A DNA stretch of 41,178 nucleotides from Myxococcota bacterium (lineage in GTDB: Bacteria; Myxococcota_A; UBA9042; DTJE01): NCBI GenBank assembly GCA_017994695.1, contig JAGOKF010000029.1, forward strand, positions 1 through 41,178. Reading direction: 5' to 3'. The notes under the pieces were generated by a model. The model ran no database searches, was not told the origin of the DNA, and saw nothing but the letters and a program-made list of their open reading frames with translations. Shown one piece after another: positions 2,953 to 35,307 of the stretch. How positions within the stretch are numbered: position 1 is the first letter of the stretch; every line of letters begins with the position of its first letter. The position numbers and the translations under genes were made by a program.

Positions 2953-3027
<75 letters not shown>

Positions 3028-20314: not shown

Positions 20315-20617
20315 TCAGTCCAGGCCGGACCCGCCAGGGACCACGCAGAGCCCCTCCTGGCAGACCTGGTTGCCCTGGGGACAGGGGGACTCGTCCGAGC
20401 ACCGGGGAACGCACCGGAGGTCCAGGCAGCCCAGTTCCGGGGCCACGCAGTCCTGGTCCCGGCGGCACTCCACGCTGGACAGGGCGACGCACCGGCCGGT
20501 CGAGACCTGGCAGAGGTCCGTCCCGTCGCAGTCGTAGTCGTCCTTGCAGGACCAGGATTCCGAACCGCAGCACAGCCCCCCCAGCACCAGCCAGAGCGGC
20601 AGCCATGACCTGCACAC
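20315..20617 (-). CDS. small cysteine-rich exported protein
   Basis: A 100-residue protein starting at a GTG behind GGAGG with 7-base spacing. Residues 1-20 are a signal sequence (RSWLPLWLVLGGLCCGS) with a double cysteine at its end, possibly lipidated although the box is irregular. The mature part has about a dozen cysteines in the pattern C-xx-DYDCDGTDLC-x6-C, repeated as C-RRDQDCV and then ending CVPRC and C-QEGLC. This is the low-complexity disulfide-rich motif of many myxobacterial lipoproteins and of longer proteins further right in this window. It converges on queG with 17 bases between the stops. It lies just downstream of the terminator-like hairpin at 20666-20691. Function unknown. 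Confidence 0.7.
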   Translation of the reverse strand: MCRSWLPLWLVLGGLCCGSESWSCKDDYDCDGTDLCQVSTGRCVALSSVECRRDQDCVAPELGCLDLRCVPRCSDESPCPQGNQVCQEGLCVVPGGSGLD

Positions 20618-20665: not shown

Positions 20666-20691
20666 CCAAAACGGCGAGCCGAGGCTCGCCG
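20666..20691 (-). terminator. Rho-independent terminator-like hairpin
   Basis: On the minus strand a 9-bp stem (20672-20680 with 20683-20691) closes in a two-base turn, or a 7-bp stem with a four-base loop, and is followed by GTTTTGG. The T-run is only four long. Read on the plus strand no T-run follows, so it acts on minus-strand transcripts. It would end the candidate RNA that starts near 21854. Confidence 0.6.
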
Positions 20692-21854
20692 CATGGTTGG
20701 ACCTGGAAACAGGGGGGACGACCGAGTGCCTCCCCAGAGCCTGTCGGTGATATCGGGTTCGCCTCGCGCGTCGCCGCGTCCGGCGCAACTCTCCTGTGGT
20801 TGGCTGTGCCCTCGAAGACTTCCCGGCGGGCTATCGCCCTACTGGTTCGGCGACCCCACCTCGTGGTTCCTCCACCGCGTGGTATTCGCCCGCCGGGTGC
20901 CGGAAGCGCGAACTTCCAGGCATGCCTTCCTCGGCCTTCCGCTCCACTCCAGAGTCATCCCCGCATCCCCAGGGTGCCGTCCTCCGGCACCACCGGCTCT
21001 CACGAGGTTTCCGCCCCCTCGGCGCAACCCAAAAGCGACGAGCCACCAACCCCGGAGCATCCAACTCCGGGTCACGTTGCGTCCCTGCCGTTCCCGCCGG
21101 CTCCGACGCCTTCCTCCCGTCGCCATCTCCCCGGTGTGTTTCAACCGGGCGCGCCCTCGGGGTTCCTCTCTCTCAGAGCCTTCCCGAACAGCGGTCGCCG
21201 GGCCTCTCGACCCGCGCATCCCTTCCTGCGACTTGGGCCAGCGCGATCGGCATCGGGACCCGGAGGTCCCGCGGCGTCCTCCCGGGAATCGGCCCGTCCG
21301 CCTTTCGGCATCCGGACCGTGCATGCCGCCGCGCACGAGGCGCCGCGTCACGACGTTCCCAGGGGGCTGCAAATCCGATCACGCCCCTCGGAATGGGGTT
21401 CCGAGGTGCCCTCGCTTCAAGGGCTTGATCCCGCTGCCGGTGGGAAGTTCGCCGCCATGTCTCCATGGCCCCCGGCGAACTTCCTGCTCTCCCAGGCGTT
21501 CACTCCTCCCTGGGGCATTCCCCTCCCCGGCCTTGGCCTTTCCGGGTGCCGCCACCGCCCTTCGCCTCTCGGCGCGGGCCCTTGCGGCCCCCCCGGGATC
21601 CTCGCCCCGAACACCCCCGCTTTCGCCGGGATGCCGCGGCTCCCCCGCATCGGCCTCCTCTCCGGTACTTCAGAGACGTGCCCTTCCGGGTTCGTTCCCC
21701 TGTACTACAGAGTTTCAAAGAACCGGGAAATCGGCTGGCCTCTTTCGAGGCTGCCGGCCCCTCCGAGGTTTCCCTCCTCGTCCCGCGGGTTCCCCGGTTG
21801 CCCGGGTCCCCCGGCGGGTGTCGGAGCGGCCGTCCGACCCCATTTCCAAGTCCA
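20666..21854 (-). ncRNA. candidate large structured RNA, about 1.19 kb
   Basis: No convincing protein gene lies here on either strand. Read on the minus strand the sequence is purine-rich and full of perfect stems with stable loops. Examples in window coordinates: 21793-21806, 5-bp stem with GCAA; 21732-21756, 5-bp plus 4-bp stems with GAAA; 21563-21574, GAGA; 21447-21480, a 34-base hairpin with 7-bp and 6-bp stems and GAGA; 21386-21406, 8-bp stem; 21294-21315, GAAA; 21254-21271, 7-bp stem with UCCG; 21199-21214, GAGA; 21130-21149, 6-bp; 21051-21071, 7-bp; 20973-20991, 7-bp. A promoter-like sequence precedes it and a terminator-like hairpin ends it. I do not recognise the class: I saw no group II intron domain V and no rRNA, RNase P or tmRNA core. 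Its role is unknown. Confidence 0.55.
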
Positions 21855-21857
21855 GTT

Positions 21858-24800
21858 TCAAGTCTGACACGGGCCGAAACGAGAGTCAATCCCCCCCGGA
21901 TCGACCTTTTGGAATCGCCTGTCATGTCGGGCAGTTGCCAGGACACGGGAATTCCGGCCGGTTTCCTCGACAGGTTTTCGACAGGCGGGAGGGACGCGGC
22001 CTGGAAGGCCGGGAGGCCGCGGACAGTCCGCGGACAGGCATTCCGCATGGGTCGAACGCTTCCGACAGCGTGCATTCCGGCATACGCGCTGCATTTCCCG
22101 CCGATCAGGGTGCCGGAGAGGATCGCCGGGGGACCGGAACGAGGGGGTCAGGGGGCCAGGAAGGTGTTGTAGACGCTGGTTTCGCAGGCATGGCGGTAGT
22201 CGTCGGTGGACATCCCCCCGTAGATCCACCGGGTGACCGATCGGCCGTCCTCCTTCGAGGTGCGGCATCCGCCGATCGACCCCTCCCGGCGGCAGGGGCA
22301 GGTGGTGCTCCAGGTGCCCTTGGAGGTCTTCTCGCAGCCCTCCCGGTCCCGGATCTCCTCCTCCCCGACGAAGCAGACCCCGTTGGCGTTCAGGGTCTTG
22401 CACCACAGGTCCCAGCAGGACCCGTCGGGGAGGTGGCACGACGCCGTGACCTCGGGGCTCGCGGGTCCGCAGCGGCTCGGGTCCAGGGCGGGTTTCGACG
22501 AGCAGGCGACGCCTGCCAGCAGGGCCAGGATCGGGAGGAATCGGGGCACTGGGGCCTCCAGTCCATCCGGAAGGTCGGCGCAAGCATAGACGGCCTGCCC
22601 CGCCGGTTCCAGGAGGGAACGGGGGGCCGTTCGCGTCGGCCAGGGTTCTTTCCAGGCGTTCCAGGCGAGACCGGAACTCCTGGTTCTCCCGCGTCAGTTC
22701 CGTCACCCGCTGCCGCAACTCCTCGACCTGTCGGTTCAGTCCCTGGATCGCCGCGAAGGCGACCCCGTCGGAGTCGATCGTCGCGATGTGCCGGTCCGAG
22801 TCCCCCAGCCCGAAGCAGGCATGGAAGTCCTGGGCCATCGGTCCCATGTGCCGGGCGCCGCTCGGTTCCTCGCGATACCGCCACGTGGTGACCGGCATCG
22901 CGGCCAGGCAGTCCAGCACTGCCTCCGGGTCCACCGGCTCGAAGTCCGTCTTGGCCTCCCGGTCGGACAGCGAGGTCCATGTGCCGGAGCCCGACGCGAG
23001 GTAGGCTCCGGTGGAAAGGCTGGAATTCGTGTAGAGATGGACGCCCCCCGATGCCCGGGCGACGAACCGATCCTGGGTGTCGCAGGCCACGTCGGCATCC
23101 GTGGAATCCCCCCAGACGAAGCACCCCGGCTGGTTGGCCTTGGCCCGCCTCCCGGCTGCCAGGGAATAGTCCCCCTGGGCCCGGCTGCCCCAACCACCCA
23201 CAACGCTCGAATATTCGCCTCCGGCAACGTTTTCCCTTCCCCCGAGCACGGAGGCAAAACCACCGCTTGCGGTATTCGCACCTCCTCCTCCAACGGTCGC
23301 GTAAAAGTTGGTCGCCATGTTCAACCAGCCACCGCAAATTGCCGAGTTGGGCTGGGTGGCCATGTTCCCGAGGCCTCCGCCCACCGTCGAGTATTCGCCC
23401 CTCGCAATGTTGGACTGTCCGCCCGCAACGGTTGCCCCCCAGGAGCTCCCAAGCGAACGGTTCGAATCGCCTGCCTGGTTTGCTATTCCCCCGGCAACGG
23501 TTCCAAACATGTCATTCACGCGATTCGGCATCTCTTCTCCAAAGCGTCTCCCCCCACCGCCCCCGATGGTTGCACCGACGGCTCCGGCACGGACCTCGTT
23601 CAGTCGGTATCCGGCGAGATGAATGGGCGCAGTCCAATAATCCATATGGGTGCTGCGCTGCGTGGTCTCGGGCTCCAGGCGAAGGGCGCGTTGGCCGTTC
23701 GTCCGCAATTCAAGCGCCTGGAAATCCGAGGTTCCCAGATACTGGGAGCCCGGGGTCGTCCCGGCGTTCCCGCCCAGGCTCCACAGGTCGGAATGCTGGT
23801 GATCCCCCGTGGCCAGGCTGCCCGGCCCCGTCCCGATTCGCGATTCGGCCAACAGGTCCTCGTAGGCCGAGTAGCGGTCCGTCGAAAGCGTGCCGCTCCC
23901 GACGATCGACGCATCCAGCGCGGGCAGGTCGCCGGAAACGAGTCGCCGGAACACCGGAAGTCCCCCGGCCCCGTCCGGGGCCGCGAGGACCGTATTCATC
24001 TGCTGGGGAAGCCACGTCACCCGGATCGTTCCGCTCCCGGTAACCGGGGAGCCGCCCACCGAGAAGGTTTCAGGCATGGACAGGCCGACGCTGGTCACCG
24101 TGCCCCCCGAGTCGCGGTCCTCCGACGAGATGATCACGCGGTGTCCAGCCGCATCGAAGCCCACGGTGGTGGCGCCCGCCCCCACGAACTGCAGGCCGAT
24201 GGCCCCGTTGGTCACCATGAAATGTTCGGTGCCGCCATGGTCCCGGACCGACAGGAATCCGGTTTCCCCGGCGATGTCGGCGTTCGTGACCGACCCGTCC
24301 GCGATGGCCAGAGAGGTCACGGCCTGGGGTGCGATCCGGAGGTCCCCCGACGCTCCCTGGACATCCCCGGCGAAGATCGTGGCGGTCGTCAGGTCGTCTG
24401 CGGCGTCCTGGTCCCATCCGGACAGCGCCGCTTCCAGTTCGGACACCGTGTCGTAGCACACCCCCCGGGCCCAGTCCTCGCTGGCCGGCTGCAGCCCCGC
24501 CACGTCCCCGATCCAGTGCCCGTGCACCGCGTCCGCCTTCCCAGCCAGCAGCGCATCGACCTGGGACGCCGTGTGGTACGCCCCCAGCATCCCGTCCACC
24601 TCTCCCTTGCCATAGTACCGGTCGTCATGGGCATGGACCGAAGGGGCATAGCGCGGGTCCAGAACCACGTGCAGTTCCCCGGGATCGTCGTAGCACCACC
24701 CACGGATCGCCGCCTCGTCCACCGAGAACACCCCGGCCTCCAGGCGCAGGCCGTTCCCGGCCCCGTAGGTCGTGTCCGTGTCCTGATCCGCCCCGCAGCC

Positions 24801-25610
24801 CCACCCCAGAAGGGGATCCCACTTCAGCACCTGCCCGACTTCACACCCAAAATCCCCCAGATCCTCGGCCCCCAGCGTCCCGTCCACGACCATCCGCCCC
24901 GTCACGCTGTCCCCCTGACCCTCGTTCACGTAGCGGGCATCGTGATCGTGTCCCTCCGGCGCATAGACCCCTCCATGGTCGTGGCCCGCCGGAGCCTTGC
25001 CGTCCAGCGCAGGCTGCAGCCCCGCCACGTCCCCGATCCCGTGCCCGTGCACCGCGTCCGCCTTCCCGGCCAGTCCCTGGGTCAGCGCCGCGGCCATCTC
25101 GGCCTCCAGGACGACGGAACCCGGCAACTGCGACTCCGCCACCGTTCCGGCCATCGTCGACAAGGCATGCCGGTGATCGGCGGCCGCGAAGGCCTGGGGC
25201 CCCTGCCCCTGAAGCGTTTCCGCATCCTGGGCCATGAAGGCGAAGGGAACCGATGCCACCCGCATCCGCGGAGTCATTTCCTCGTCGTCCGCCACCTGGA
25301 CCCCGATCCAGAGATTCCCGCTGGCGACGTGGGCCACGTCGACCGGATTCCCCGGGTCCAGGCCCAGGATCATGTGGAAACGCCCCCCATCCACGTAGAC
25401 CTGCTGGACCTCGGTCCACAGCACGTGGACCGGATCCCTCGAGGCCGGATCGTCATACAGCGTCACCCGCACCTCGGCCACGCCCGTGTAGTCGCCCTGG
25501 GAAGTGCCGAGCCGGCCGCTGAAATTCAGCAGCCACGGCACGGACCAGGCCTGGGCAGGCCAGCCAACCCATGCGACCGTCCACACCAGAAGTCTCATGA
25601 TTCCCTTCAT
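21858..25610 (-). CDS. tail-fibre-like surface protein with YadA-head repeats and peptidase S74 domain; 3' end uncertain
   Basis: The start ATG at 25610 follows GGGAGGTCGTC and opens a signal peptide (MRLLVWTVAWVGWPAQA). A domain of about 130 residues resembles the N-terminal beta region of similar exported fibre proteins (WLLNFSGRL, YVDGGRFHMILG). Then comes a long collagen-like or fibre region with HDH and GHGIGDVAGLQPA repeats. Residues about 690-830 are YadA-type head repeats (GGxxNxAxGxxSxVxGG). Residues about 880-980 are a peptidase S74 self-cleaving chaperone (SDREAKTDF, MGPMAQDFHACFG, IATIDSDGVAFAAIQGL), followed by a coiled coil (VEELRQRVTELTRENQEFRSRL). Recognisable protein stops near 22610 at a run of six C on this strand, but no stop codon follows in any frame nearby. 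The open frame continues to 21858 as arginine- and proline-rich sequence across the small lipoprotein gene. A frameshift or sequence error is likely. Confidence 0.75.
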   Translation of the reverse strand: MKGIMRLLVWTVAWVGWPAQAWSVPWLLNFSGRLGTSQGDYTGVAEVRVTLYDDPASRDPVHVLWTEVQQVYVDGGRFHMILGLDPGNPVDVAHVASGNLWIGVQVADDEEMTPRMRVASVPFAFMAQDAETLQGQGPQAFAAADHRHALSTMAGTVAESQLPGSVVLEAEMAAALTQGLAGKADAVHGHGIGDVAGLQPALDGKAPAGHDHGGVYAPEGHDHDARYVNEGQGDSVTGRMVVDGTLGAEDLGDFGCEVGQVLKWDPLLGWGCGADQDTDTTYGAGNGLRLEAGVFSVDEAAIRGWCYDDPGELHVVLDPRYAPSVHAHDDRYYGKGEVDGMLGAYHTASQVDALLAGKADAVHGHWIGDVAGLQPASEDWARGVCYDTVSELEAALSGWDQDAADDLTTATIFAGDVQGASGDLRIAPQAVTSLAIADGSVTNADIAGETGFLSVRDHGGTEHFMVTNGAIGLQFVGAGATTVGFDAAGHRVIISSEDRDSGGTVTSVGLSMPETFSVGGSPVTGSGTIRVTWLPQQMNTVLAAPDGAGGLPVFRRLVSGDLPALDASIVGSGTLSTDRYSAYEDLLAESRIGTGPGSLATGDHQHSDLWSLGGNAGTTPGSQYLGTSDFQALELRTNGQRALRLEPETTQRSTHMDYWTAPIHLAGYRLNEVRAGAVGATIGGGGGRRFGEEMPNRVNDMFGTVAGGIANQAGDSNRSLGSSWGATVAGGQSNIARGEYSTVGGGLGNMATQPNSAICGGWLNMATNFYATVGGGGANTASGGFASVLGGRENVAGGEYSSVVGGWGSRAQGDYSLAAGRRAKANQPGCFVWGDSTDADVACDTQDRFVARASGGVHLYTNSSLSTGAYLASGSGTWTSLSDREAKTDFEPVDPEAVLDCLAAMPVTTWRYREEPSGARHMGPMAQDFHACFGLGDSDRHIATIDSDGVAFAAIQGLNRQVEELRQRVTELTRENQEFRSRLERLERTLADANGPPFPPGTGGAGRLCLRRPSGWTGGPSAPIPPDPGPAGRRRLLVETRPGPEPLRTREPRGHGVVPPPRRVLLGPVVQDPERQRGLLRRGGGDPGPGGLREDLQGHLEHHLPLPPGGVDRRMPHLEGGRPIGHPVDLRGDVHRRLPPCLRNQRLQHLPGPLTPSFRSPGDPLRHPDRREMQRVCRNARCRKRSTHAECLSADCPRPPGLPGRVPPACRKPVEETGRNSRVLATARHDRRFQKVDPGGIDSRFGPCQT
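21861..21889 (-). promoter_or_regulatory. candidate promoter of the structured RNA
   Basis: Minus strand TTGACT (21889-21884), exactly 17 bases, CAGACT (21866-21861). The -35 matches at five of six positions. The -10 differs by one base from TAGACT, the -10 of the sdh promoter in this window. Transcription would begin near 21854, just before the first hairpin. Confidence 0.5.
21967..22037. repeat. two pairs of 11-base-phased direct repeats upstream of the structured RNA
   Basis: TCGACAGG occurs at 21967-21974 and 21978-21985; CCGCGGACAG occurs at 22017-22026 and 22028-22037. Each pair is spaced 11 bases, one helical turn, as in tandem regulator sites. The stretch 21890-22147 otherwise holds no gene I can support, though the tail-fibre reading frame passes through it. 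Confidence 0.4.
22148..22549 (-). CDS. small cysteine-rich lipoprotein
   Basis: A 133-residue exported protein from a GTG start behind GGAGG with 6-base spacing. The signal peptide PRFLPILALLAGVACSS ends in a probable lipobox (cysteine 16). The mature domain has about ten cysteines, including DGSCWDLWCK, CPCRREGSIGGC and a final C in ACETSVYNTF. Aromatic and polar residues between the cysteines suggest a folded disulfide domain, not a spacer. I recognise no family. The tail-fibre gene's reading frame continues across this gene in another frame, which complicates both calls. The clear ribosome site, signal peptide and cysteine pattern favour this frame as the translated one here. Confidence 0.7.
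   Translation of the reverse strand: MPRFLPILALLAGVACSSKPALDPSRCGPASPEVTASCHLPDGSCWDLWCKTLNANGVCFVGEEEIRDREGCEKTSKGTWSTTCPCRREGSIGGCRTSKEDGRSVTRWIYGGMSTDDYRHACETSVYNTFLAP
24487..24548. repeat. direct repeat inside the fibre gene, copy 1
   Basis: These 62 bases match 25012-25073 with two mismatches and encode the same 20-residue fibre segment (GKADAVHGHxIGDVAGLQPA). It is a recent internal duplication or a conversion tract. Confidence 0.8.
25012..25073. repeat. direct repeat inside the fibre gene, copy 2
   Basis: Partner of 24487-24548, 525 bases away, 60 of 62 bases identical and in the same reading frame. Recombination between the copies would delete or add 175 residues in frame. Confidence 0.8.
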
Positions 25611-25623
25611 GACGACCTCCCGT

Positions 25624-27255
25624 TCACGGTTCGAATCCCGCATCCAGCGTGTAGTGCGCCGAAGAAGCGCGCATTCCCTCGACAACAGGCTGCACCACGC
25701 AGGCCCCCAGGAAATCCCGGCCGCTCATGCCCACTCGTCCGGCGGGAGTCATCTCGGCCTGCCACAGGCCCGGGAGGAAGAGACATGCGCCATCCACGCA
25801 GCCGCCGATGCACTCCTGGACGACGAACCGGTACCGGCACTCTCCCGTGGCCTCGTCGCACAGTCCTTCCACCTGCCAGTCCCTCAGGCTGGTCGCGTTC
25901 TCGCACCAGTCCCCGGGCGGTTCATTGCAGACCACCGGAAGACCGGCGCAGACGCCCCGGTGGCAGGCCTCGCCGAACGTGCAGGCGTTGCCGTCTTCGC
26001 ACGCCTCCCCATCGGCATAGGAGTAGATGCAGCGTCCGGCAACACAGGTCCCCTCGGGAGCCAGGCAGGGCCAGGGCGGTTCGCATCGCACCTTCGTGCA
26101 GGCGTCCTCGTCCAGGCATGTCCCGTCCACGCAGCCTCGATCGCAGGGGATCTCCTTCCGTTCATAGACGCAGGTCCCGTGGATGCAGGTCCCCGGAAAG
26201 GAATGGGTCACCATCGCGCTCCCGTCCGCGAGGCACTCGGGGGCGGGTGGGGTTTCGCAGGCCACGGGTCGGCCCCGGCACACACCATCGCTGCAGGCGT
26301 CCTGGTCGGTGCAGGGGTTCCGATCATCGCAGGGAGCCCGGTTGGCTTCGTGGATGCAGCCGGTGCCCTCCTCGCAGCGGTCGTCCGTGCAGGGGTTTCC
26401 GTCATTGCAGTCCAGGGCCGTACCCCGGCACTTGCCCTCCTCGCAGTGGTCCCGGATCGTGCACCCGTCCCGGTCGTCGCAGAGGCCGGACCGTGGACTG
26501 TGAAGGCAACCCTTCGACCGGTCGCAGAAATCCTCGGTACAGGGATTGTCGTCGTCGCAAGCCACGGGGTCGCCCTGGCAGACGCCCTCCACGCAGCGGT
26601 CCCCTTCCGTGCAGGCCGATCCGTCACTGCAGAGTCCCACGGACAGGGCTTCGTGGATGCACCCGATGAATGCCTCGCACCGGTCCTCGGTGCACGGGTT
26701 CCGGTCGTCACAGTCGTCCACCGTGCCCGTGCAGACCCCCTTCCAGCAGCGGTCCATCCAGGTGCACGGGTCCTGGTCATCGCATTGCTCCCCGTCCTCG
26801 GCCAGATCCACGACGCACCTTCCCTCGACGCACCGGACCAGCCGGCAGGGCCCCGGATCCTGCCGTCCTTCCTGGCAATGCTCGTCCAGGACGCACTCCG
26901 CTTCCCCCGAATCCGGCGCCGGATCCCCTGGGCCCATATCCCCGGAATCGGAGCCGTTCACGTCCTCGTCCCCGGTTTCCGCCGGAAGATCGCCCCCCGG
27001 ATCCGAGAGGTCCTCCAATCCGGTGTCGCCGCTTTCGGGCTGCGGATCGCCGCCCGCATCGCGTTCCGGAAACCCGTCGTCCTGCCCGTTCCCGGCATCG
27101 CCGGCGAGGTCGGACGGCACGTCCATTCCGGGTTCGATGGGGATCATGTCCGGAACCCCGGCATTCCCTCCACGACCGCAGCCCGGAACCATCACCACGA
27201 CCCATCCGATCAGGGCAAGGGATCGCAGGACGGGTCCGTCCAAGACGTTCATCAT
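25624..27255 (-). CDS. large cysteine-rich lipoprotein with CDD-NPCT repeats
   Basis: A 543-residue surface lipoprotein. ATG 27255 follows GGGAGG; an adjacent ATG at 27252 is equally possible. The signal peptide ends in the lipobox VPGC (cysteine about 26). An acidic stretch rich in aspartate, glycine and proline runs to about 110. The core is a tandem array of about eight repeats with the pattern CDDxNPCTxDxCxxxxGCxHxxxxxxC, each about 40 residues and densely disulfide-bonded, as in many myxobacterial outer-surface proteins. The C-terminal 60 residues lack the repeat. The stop lies 13 bases before the fibre gene start, so the two form an operon. Probable role: a stalk or adhesive surface display; this is inference. 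Confidence 0.85.
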   Translation of the reverse strand: MMNVLDGPVLRSLALIGWVVVMVPGCGRGGNAGVPDMIPIEPGMDVPSDLAGDAGNGQDDGFPERDAGGDPQPESGDTGLEDLSDPGGDLPAETGDEDVNGSDSGDMGPGDPAPDSGEAECVLDEHCQEGRQDPGPCRLVRCVEGRCVVDLAEDGEQCDDQDPCTWMDRCWKGVCTGTVDDCDDRNPCTEDRCEAFIGCIHEALSVGLCSDGSACTEGDRCVEGVCQGDPVACDDDNPCTEDFCDRSKGCLHSPRSGLCDDRDGCTIRDHCEEGKCRGTALDCNDGNPCTDDRCEEGTGCIHEANRAPCDDRNPCTDQDACSDGVCRGRPVACETPPAPECLADGSAMVTHSFPGTCIHGTCVYERKEIPCDRGCVDGTCLDEDACTKVRCEPPWPCLAPEGTCVAGRCIYSYADGEACEDGNACTFGEACHRGVCAGLPVVCNEPPGDWCENATSLRDWQVEGLCDEATGECRYRFVVQECIGGCVDGACLFLPGLWQAEMTPAGRVGMSGRDFLGACVVQPVVEGMRASSAHYTLDAGFEP

Positions 27256-27299
27256 CCCACCTCCCTGTTTCCCCCCTTCGTCTGCGGAATGATGAGGCA

Positions 27300-27329
27300 A
27301 TTGTGTCGCAATTCCGGGATTCCATGCAA
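27300..27329 (-). promoter_or_regulatory. weak candidate promoter of the cysteine-rich lipoprotein-fibre operon
   Basis: Minus strand TTGCAT (27329-27324), 18 bases, CACAAT (27305-27300). AATTG and CAATT form an inverted repeat over the -10. The region is unusually AT-rich for this genome. The rest of the gap up to 27504 shows nothing clear. Confidence 0.3.
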
Positions 27330-27504
27330 CCCCATCGACGCGACCGACGGGTGTTTCCCGATCGCGGCAAGCCCAAGGTCCGGGCGCAGGGGAACGCCCC
27401 GCGGAGCGTCGCATGGGGAAGCCCAGGGCTTCACCCCGCTTCGGATGTCGGTTTGCCGGCGAATCCGGACCGGGTGCATGGGGCAGTCCGGGGACCGGCC
27501 CCGG

Positions 27505-35234: not shown

Positions 35235-35307
<73 letters not shown>

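Follow-up and report, generated by a model that had tools for sequence, protein, structure and literature searches.

The window, by which we mean the whole 41,178 nt stretch of DNA analysed here (contig JAGOKF010000029.1 of a Myxococcota bacterium), carries at 20666–21855 on the minus strand a region of about 1.19 kb that is almost certainly a free-standing RNA gene, its structured, non-coding product being predicted from sequence (Table 1). On the same strand, beginning about 50 bases past the terminator of the RNA, is the gene (20315–20617) for a small, Cys-rich protein that contains a DUF7107 domain. Upstream, the gene at 25624–27414 (minus strand) specifies a larger protein in which slime-mould (Dicty_CTDC) repeats accompany a weaker match to DUF7107. 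A large protein, encoded at 22390–25685 (minus strand) immediately upstream of the RNA, combines a phage-tail-like repeat with an endosialidase chaperone (Peptidase_S74) at its C terminus, and by these predicted domains is of the self-processing surface or tail fibre type. There are two tRNA genes 13–18 kb from the RNA (2956–3027 and 35235–35307, both minus strand).

The original prediction, made from the letters of the window without database searches, described this stretch as gene-free, and comparison with relatives agrees. No open frame is conserved across the relatives of the RNA, in which stops are present. Most short indels among them have lengths not divisible by three, and a comparison of the two closest copies reveals no codon phase in the substitutions (20/20/28), so that the region does not behave as a protein-coding gene. 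The long plus-strand ORFs over the RNA are not conserved, and are a by-product of the high GC content. For the minus strand the folding energy is −658 kcal/mol, compared to −582 ± 9 in dinucleotide shuffles (z = −8.2), while the plus strand of the same region gives z = −4.0.

Table 1. Predicted features of the RNA gene and its flanks (positions in the window)
Feature	Position	Strand	Details and basis
Structured non-coding RNA, about 1.19 kb	20666..21855	-	Homologues; covariation over 303 pairs; folding z -8.2; no coding signal
Sigma70-type promoter	21861..21889	-	-35 TTGACT, 21889-21884; 17-base spacer; -10 CAGACT, 21866-21861
Terminal helix, 5' strand	21827..21854	-	Pairs with 20698-20724; blocks of 17 and 9 pairs
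Arm 0, small hairpin	21774..21826	-	GNRA cap GCAA; GNRA in 9/13
Arm 1	21505..21768	-	Root CCUC-GGA-GGGGC / GCCCC-AGG-GAGG; GNRA hairpin 21751-21738, 13/13
BoxA-like element GTTCTTTGAAAC	21712..21723	-	Putative NusB/S10 antitermination signal; pattern and likeness to boxA
Arm 2, middle of variable length	21168..21496	-	GNRA hairpin 21212-21201, 13/13
Arm 3, most widely conserved core	21014..21162	-	Covariation in 18 and 84 sequences
Arm 4	20729..21007	-	Inner domain 20789-20954 (model R3); GNRA hairpin 20779-20766, 13/13
3x3 purine loop, arm 1 root	21764-21762 x 21511-21509	-	13-copy alignment
Other 3x3 purine loops, first four	21493/21174, 21418/21227, 21158/21020, 21104/21086	-	
Other 3x3 purine loops, last four	21003/20735, 20950/20795, 20932/20813, 20878/20862	-	
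Terminal helix, 3' strand	20698..20724	-	Covariation, 13 copies
Intrinsic terminator	20668..20691	-	CGGCGAGC-CTCG-GCTCGCCG-TTTT; sequence

Transcription signals

The promoter-like pair at one end of the region and the terminator-like hairpin at the other, both noted in the original prediction, keep their positions in relatives. Among the 11 copies for which upstream DNA was available (the window included), a −35 motif TTG(A/C)C and a −10 motif (T/C)ANNNT, spaced by 16–17 bases, occur in the same place in 10, and the start of the RNA is predicted near 21853–21856. At the other end the terminator stem differs between relatives, with the T-run at the same point. The ends first given for the transcript also agree with the helix formed between its 5' and 3' ends, described below.

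Within the RNA is a boxA-like element resembling the sites at which the NusB/S10 complex acts. The pattern searched for ([GT][CT]TCTTT[GAC]A), a short motif whose exact match is missing from most of the distant loci, was found upstream of the core at 34 of 78 loci, compared to one of 78 downstream and none of 78 upstream on the antisense strand, thus placing a boxA-type sequence near the 5' end, as in a Nus-dependent antiterminated transcript. For comparison, the genome to which the window belongs carries the boxA GCTCCTTGAAAACT in its 16S leader, and the boxA of a Legionella CRISPR leader is GTTCTTTAAAA (PMC7862264). In the 16S leader (L167:1580–2100, minus strand), a row of several promoter-like TTGACA sites accompanies the GCTCCTTGAAAACT boxA. 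The antitermination complex of rRNA operons requires boxA, which is also sufficient for it (PMC10250234), and we infer an rRNA-type antitermination role for the element of the RNA gene. The concrete prediction that follows is of rRNA-like, high-level transcription.

Architecture and covariation

The 5' end of the RNA pairs with its 3' end, closing a hub that gives rise to four large arms, and two-sided changes are found in 12 pairs of this terminal helix across 13 copies; the pairing ties the two proposed ends into one molecule. Comparison of homologues supports a gene that stands on its own and specifies a non-coding RNA whose ends pair and whose predicted fold is modular, with four arms. An alignment of 13 near-full-length copies (the window included, 57–94% identity to it), made without reference to structure, was used to evaluate the whole molecule, with slid partners and shuffling as controls. 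Over 303 pairs, 90.4% of cells can pair, compared to 40–47% with slid partners; two-sided changes occur at 151 of the 303 pairs, and there are 415 two-sided cells against 134 ± 10 after shuffling. The alignment of the 13 copies has an energy of −538 on the RNA strand, compared to −473 for the opposite strand and to about −184 once its columns are shuffled. No candidate pseudoknot was recovered from the unpaired columns of this alignment, a search of low power.

The core (arm 3) was available from more sequences. In a structure-free alignment of 18, 92.7% of cells pair (38–42% when slid), 30 of the 42 pairs show two-sided changes, and two-sided cells number 139 compared to 44 in shuffled controls. 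With 84 sequences the values are 91.9%, 40 of 42 pairs, and 941 cells against 278, figures that lean towards the model because this alignment was fitted to it. A large structured RNA on the minus strand, with many stems, had been proposed from the sequence of the window, with paired changes in homologues as its test; such changes were found, and codon-like variation was not. The proposed density of GNRA-capped stems was also upheld. Counting stems of at least 4 bp, there are nine on the minus strand and two on the plus strand, compared to a mean of 1.5 (maximum 6) in 300 shuffles and a mean of 0.85 (maximum 4) in 126 stretches elsewhere in the window. The consensus fold does not hold all nine, and three of its hairpin loops are GNRA in 13/13 copies. 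Beyond what was first noted, the present analysis adds the spread of the RNA across the phylum, a four-arm architecture in which modules recur, the covariation seen at the 3x3 purine loops, and the boxA-like element.

A recurrent module consists of a helix, a purine-rich 3x3 internal loop and a second helix, and nine such loops are present. Over the nine loops and 13 copies, G.G or A.A occupies the two outer opposed positions in 111/117 and 114/117 cells. At the loop within the core hairpin (21104/21086), where 82 sequences could be compared, the same holds for 161 of 164 cells (49 A.A and 112 G.G); by our own arithmetic, independent columns would give about 55–60% homopurine. Because G.G swaps for A.A while A.G is avoided, these data suggest a symmetric base-pair geometry at the outer loop positions, and a covarying G.G/A.A 3x3 loop would usefully extend the known set of RNA 3D modules.

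The arms themselves are related to each other, as indicated by a covariance model of the arm 4 inner domain (R3; 20789–20954, built from the 13 close copies only) that also matches the core, both in the window (20997–21178, E 0.002) and at locus L115 (E 1e-5). A second core in tandem is seen at three loci (L125:2318–2768, L142:5799–6206 and L152:6032–6483), and the arms appear to duplicate within RNA loci.

Distribution and genomic context

BLAST searches gave matches in 17 of 53 related genomes. Two of the weakest (L048 and L049) looked like chance when the sequences were read, and their genomes have no match to R1, the first covariance model of the core (R1 and its retrained version, R2, were both built from 21013–21164). 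At the level of the class, R1 found the core in 21 of 52 genomes; among 379 Myxococcota genomes it found the core in 65, and R2 did so in 71, with 1–6 matches per genome. The true prevalence may be higher than this, as the search filters were strict; roughly 80% of the sampled genomes of the phylum have no match, and the RNA is therefore not essential to the phylum. Matches of R3 (E < 2e-6) were found in 25 distant loci, each 3' of the core and on the same strand, so the order and orientation of the domains are conserved through the phylum.

Phyla beyond the Myxococcota were covered by a single strict pattern for the 5' block, which matched 16 contigs among 84,980 named species genomes. Their titles are Myxococcota, Myxococcales or Deltaproteobacteria, except for one titled Oligoflexales, which corresponds to a genome from the same family as the window. 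Phage and plasmid records gave no match to the RNA, and viral contigs none to the 5'-block pattern. Six matches of a core pattern to viral contigs were rejected, since R1 scored them at E 0.26 or worse.

Some genomes carry more than one copy. Two copies in genome G011 each match their own counterpart in G012 (88% and 93%), while copies within one genome are only 66–67% alike, indicating old, stably inherited paralogues. The paralogous copies in the family occupy two conserved gene settings; one is seen in the flanks of L033, L035 and L040, and the other is marked by an epoxyqueuosine-reductase-like 4Fe-4S protein in the downstream flank of the window, L032, L034 and L037.

The genes flanking the RNA are ordinary chromosomal ones (transporter, peptidase, oxidoreductases, response regulator and others) in random orientation, with a median gap between them of 1.5 kb. 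No integrase, phage island or reverse transcriptase was detected among the sampled neighbours. An all-against-all comparison of the genes neighbouring the RNA revealed no widespread partner protein, only small protein clusters that are mostly shared among close relatives.

Relation to known RNAs and possible function

Searches with the 4227 models of Rfam 15, at the gathering cut-off and at a permissive one, returned only tRNAs in the window and in 20 homologous loci. Weak matches to SorY and to group II introns were far below cut-off and were rejected. The class left unnamed in the original prediction is thus still without a named family, and no description of the RNA was found in the open-access literature, a coverage that excludes subscription papers and most preprints. 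As no known RNA family contains it, the predicted RNA is considered categorically new, i.e. previously undescribed and unrelated to named families. On a stricter reading it could be a new, unrelated member of the loose 'large ornate RNA' kind, a label that describes appearance and not kinship.

To our knowledge, only a handful of bacterial RNAs are this large and complex, apart from rRNA and group II introns. The functions of giant bacterial RNAs are a long-standing open question. The RNA described here joins this very small group with relatives in about a fifth of the sampled phylum. Among such RNAs, OLE is a large chromosomal non-coding RNA with an elaborate covarying structure and unresolved biochemistry (PMC9723947, PMC12286853). 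Size, chromosomal location, the absence of coding capacity and elaborate covariation are all shared with the present RNA, and the OLE model gave no match in the window at E up to 5. However, OLE is about 600 nt, belongs to Gram-positive bacteria and has known partner proteins (OapA, OapB and OapC), while the myxococcotal RNA is about 1.2 kb and has no linked partner. ROOL and GOLLD are likewise large, ornate RNAs of unknown function, and both assemble into RNA-only cages (PMC12286853). They are similar to the present RNA, known here from its sequence, in size, ornateness and orphan status, but are found in phages and prophages near tRNA islands, whereas this RNA has ordinary chromosomal flanks. 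Neither the sampled neighbours, the phage records nor the tRNA genes of the window point to such a location, and the ROOL and GOLLD models have no match in the window or in 20 homologous loci. At its predicted length the RNA is larger than both OLE and ROOL, and its gene is a stable chromosomal one and not phage cargo.

Transcription units for rRNA, with their leader boxA and leader-trailer helix (PMC10250234), provide a different comparison. Like them, the predicted RNA would be a long, untranslated, structured transcript with a boxA-like element and paired ends; however, it has no rRNA match in Rfam and would be a single molecule, and its boxA-like element is internal and follows the 5' strand of the closing helix, whereas rRNA leaders have the opposite order.

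From these features a working model can be drawn. RNA polymerase would start near 21855 at the sigma70-type promoter and stop at the terminator near 20668, and the RNA would stay untranslated, its paired ends closing the four-arm hub. The boxA-like element, about 130 bases in, may recruit NusB/S10 as in rRNA operons and so let an untranslated transcript escape Rho. Least certain is the last step, in which the finished RNA might act in trans, either as an architectural particle, whether single or oligomeric, or by scaffolding an RNA-protein complex, with the GNRA loops and the repeated homopurine loops as contact surfaces. We consider it somewhat probable that the RNA is of a new class and acts in trans as a particle or scaffold in the manner of OLE, ROOL and GOLLD, although unrelated to them, a role argued from analogy, size and modular architecture only. 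More tentatively, and with rather less than even expectation, the Myxococcota may share across the phylum a family of modular RNAs of at least 1.1 kb, with duplicable arms that covarying homopurine 3x3 loops join, and with rRNA-style antitermination, that form a chromosomally encoded RNA particle. If true, this would amount to an undescribed kind of RNA machine, with a house-keeping or lineage-specific role. With dozens of relatives already aligned, two domains represented by covariance models and well-defined ends, structure work and genetics can begin directly.

Four other explanations were weighed against a trans-acting particle or scaffold. The RNA could be one half of an RNA-protein machine, in which the 3x3 purine loops are repeated copies of one site bound by a host protein whose gene lies elsewhere. 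The presence of nine nearly equivalent loops in a single RNA, their strict G.G/A.A code and the capacity of the modules to duplicate in tandem would all fit, but no gene is found repeatedly next to the RNA across distant loci and a purely structural motif would show the same loop code, so we regard this as unlikely, though the strongest of the four. A ribozyme or intron-like catalytic RNA, such as a degenerate group II intron, is improbable. The RNA is similar to large ribozymes in size, GNRA caps and long-range pairing, and to group II introns in its long-range domain architecture around a hub, and the model group-II-D1D4-6 has a weak match at 20699–20822 (13.5 bits, E 0.49). This best score is far below the 49-bit cut-off, however, and none of the 20 homologous loci shows a group II match; nor does the RNA have a domain V or catalytic match. 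It is not inserted in a host gene but sits between genes in the examined loci with a promoter and terminator of its own, and the sampled neighbours lack a reverse transcriptase.

That the RNA is a cis-acting leader, either a riboswitch or an attenuator, controlling the next gene is very improbable, even though the Cys-rich protein gene in the window follows on the same strand. An intrinsic terminator closes the RNA, and over 69 loci the downstream genes, which differ between distant loci, are on the same strand in 31 cases and on the opposite strand in 38, so that no consistent co-oriented gene is found. Finally, an artefact of GC-rich sequence or an unrecognised protein gene, as might be suggested by a 732-aa ORF crossing the RNA, has next to no likelihood given the stops in relatives, the non-triplet indels and the lack of codon phase, and is refuted by paired changes far above the slid and shuffled controls. 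This spurious ORF (20693–22891, plus strand) is antisense to the RNA, and automatic annotation could call it a gene and so hide the RNA.
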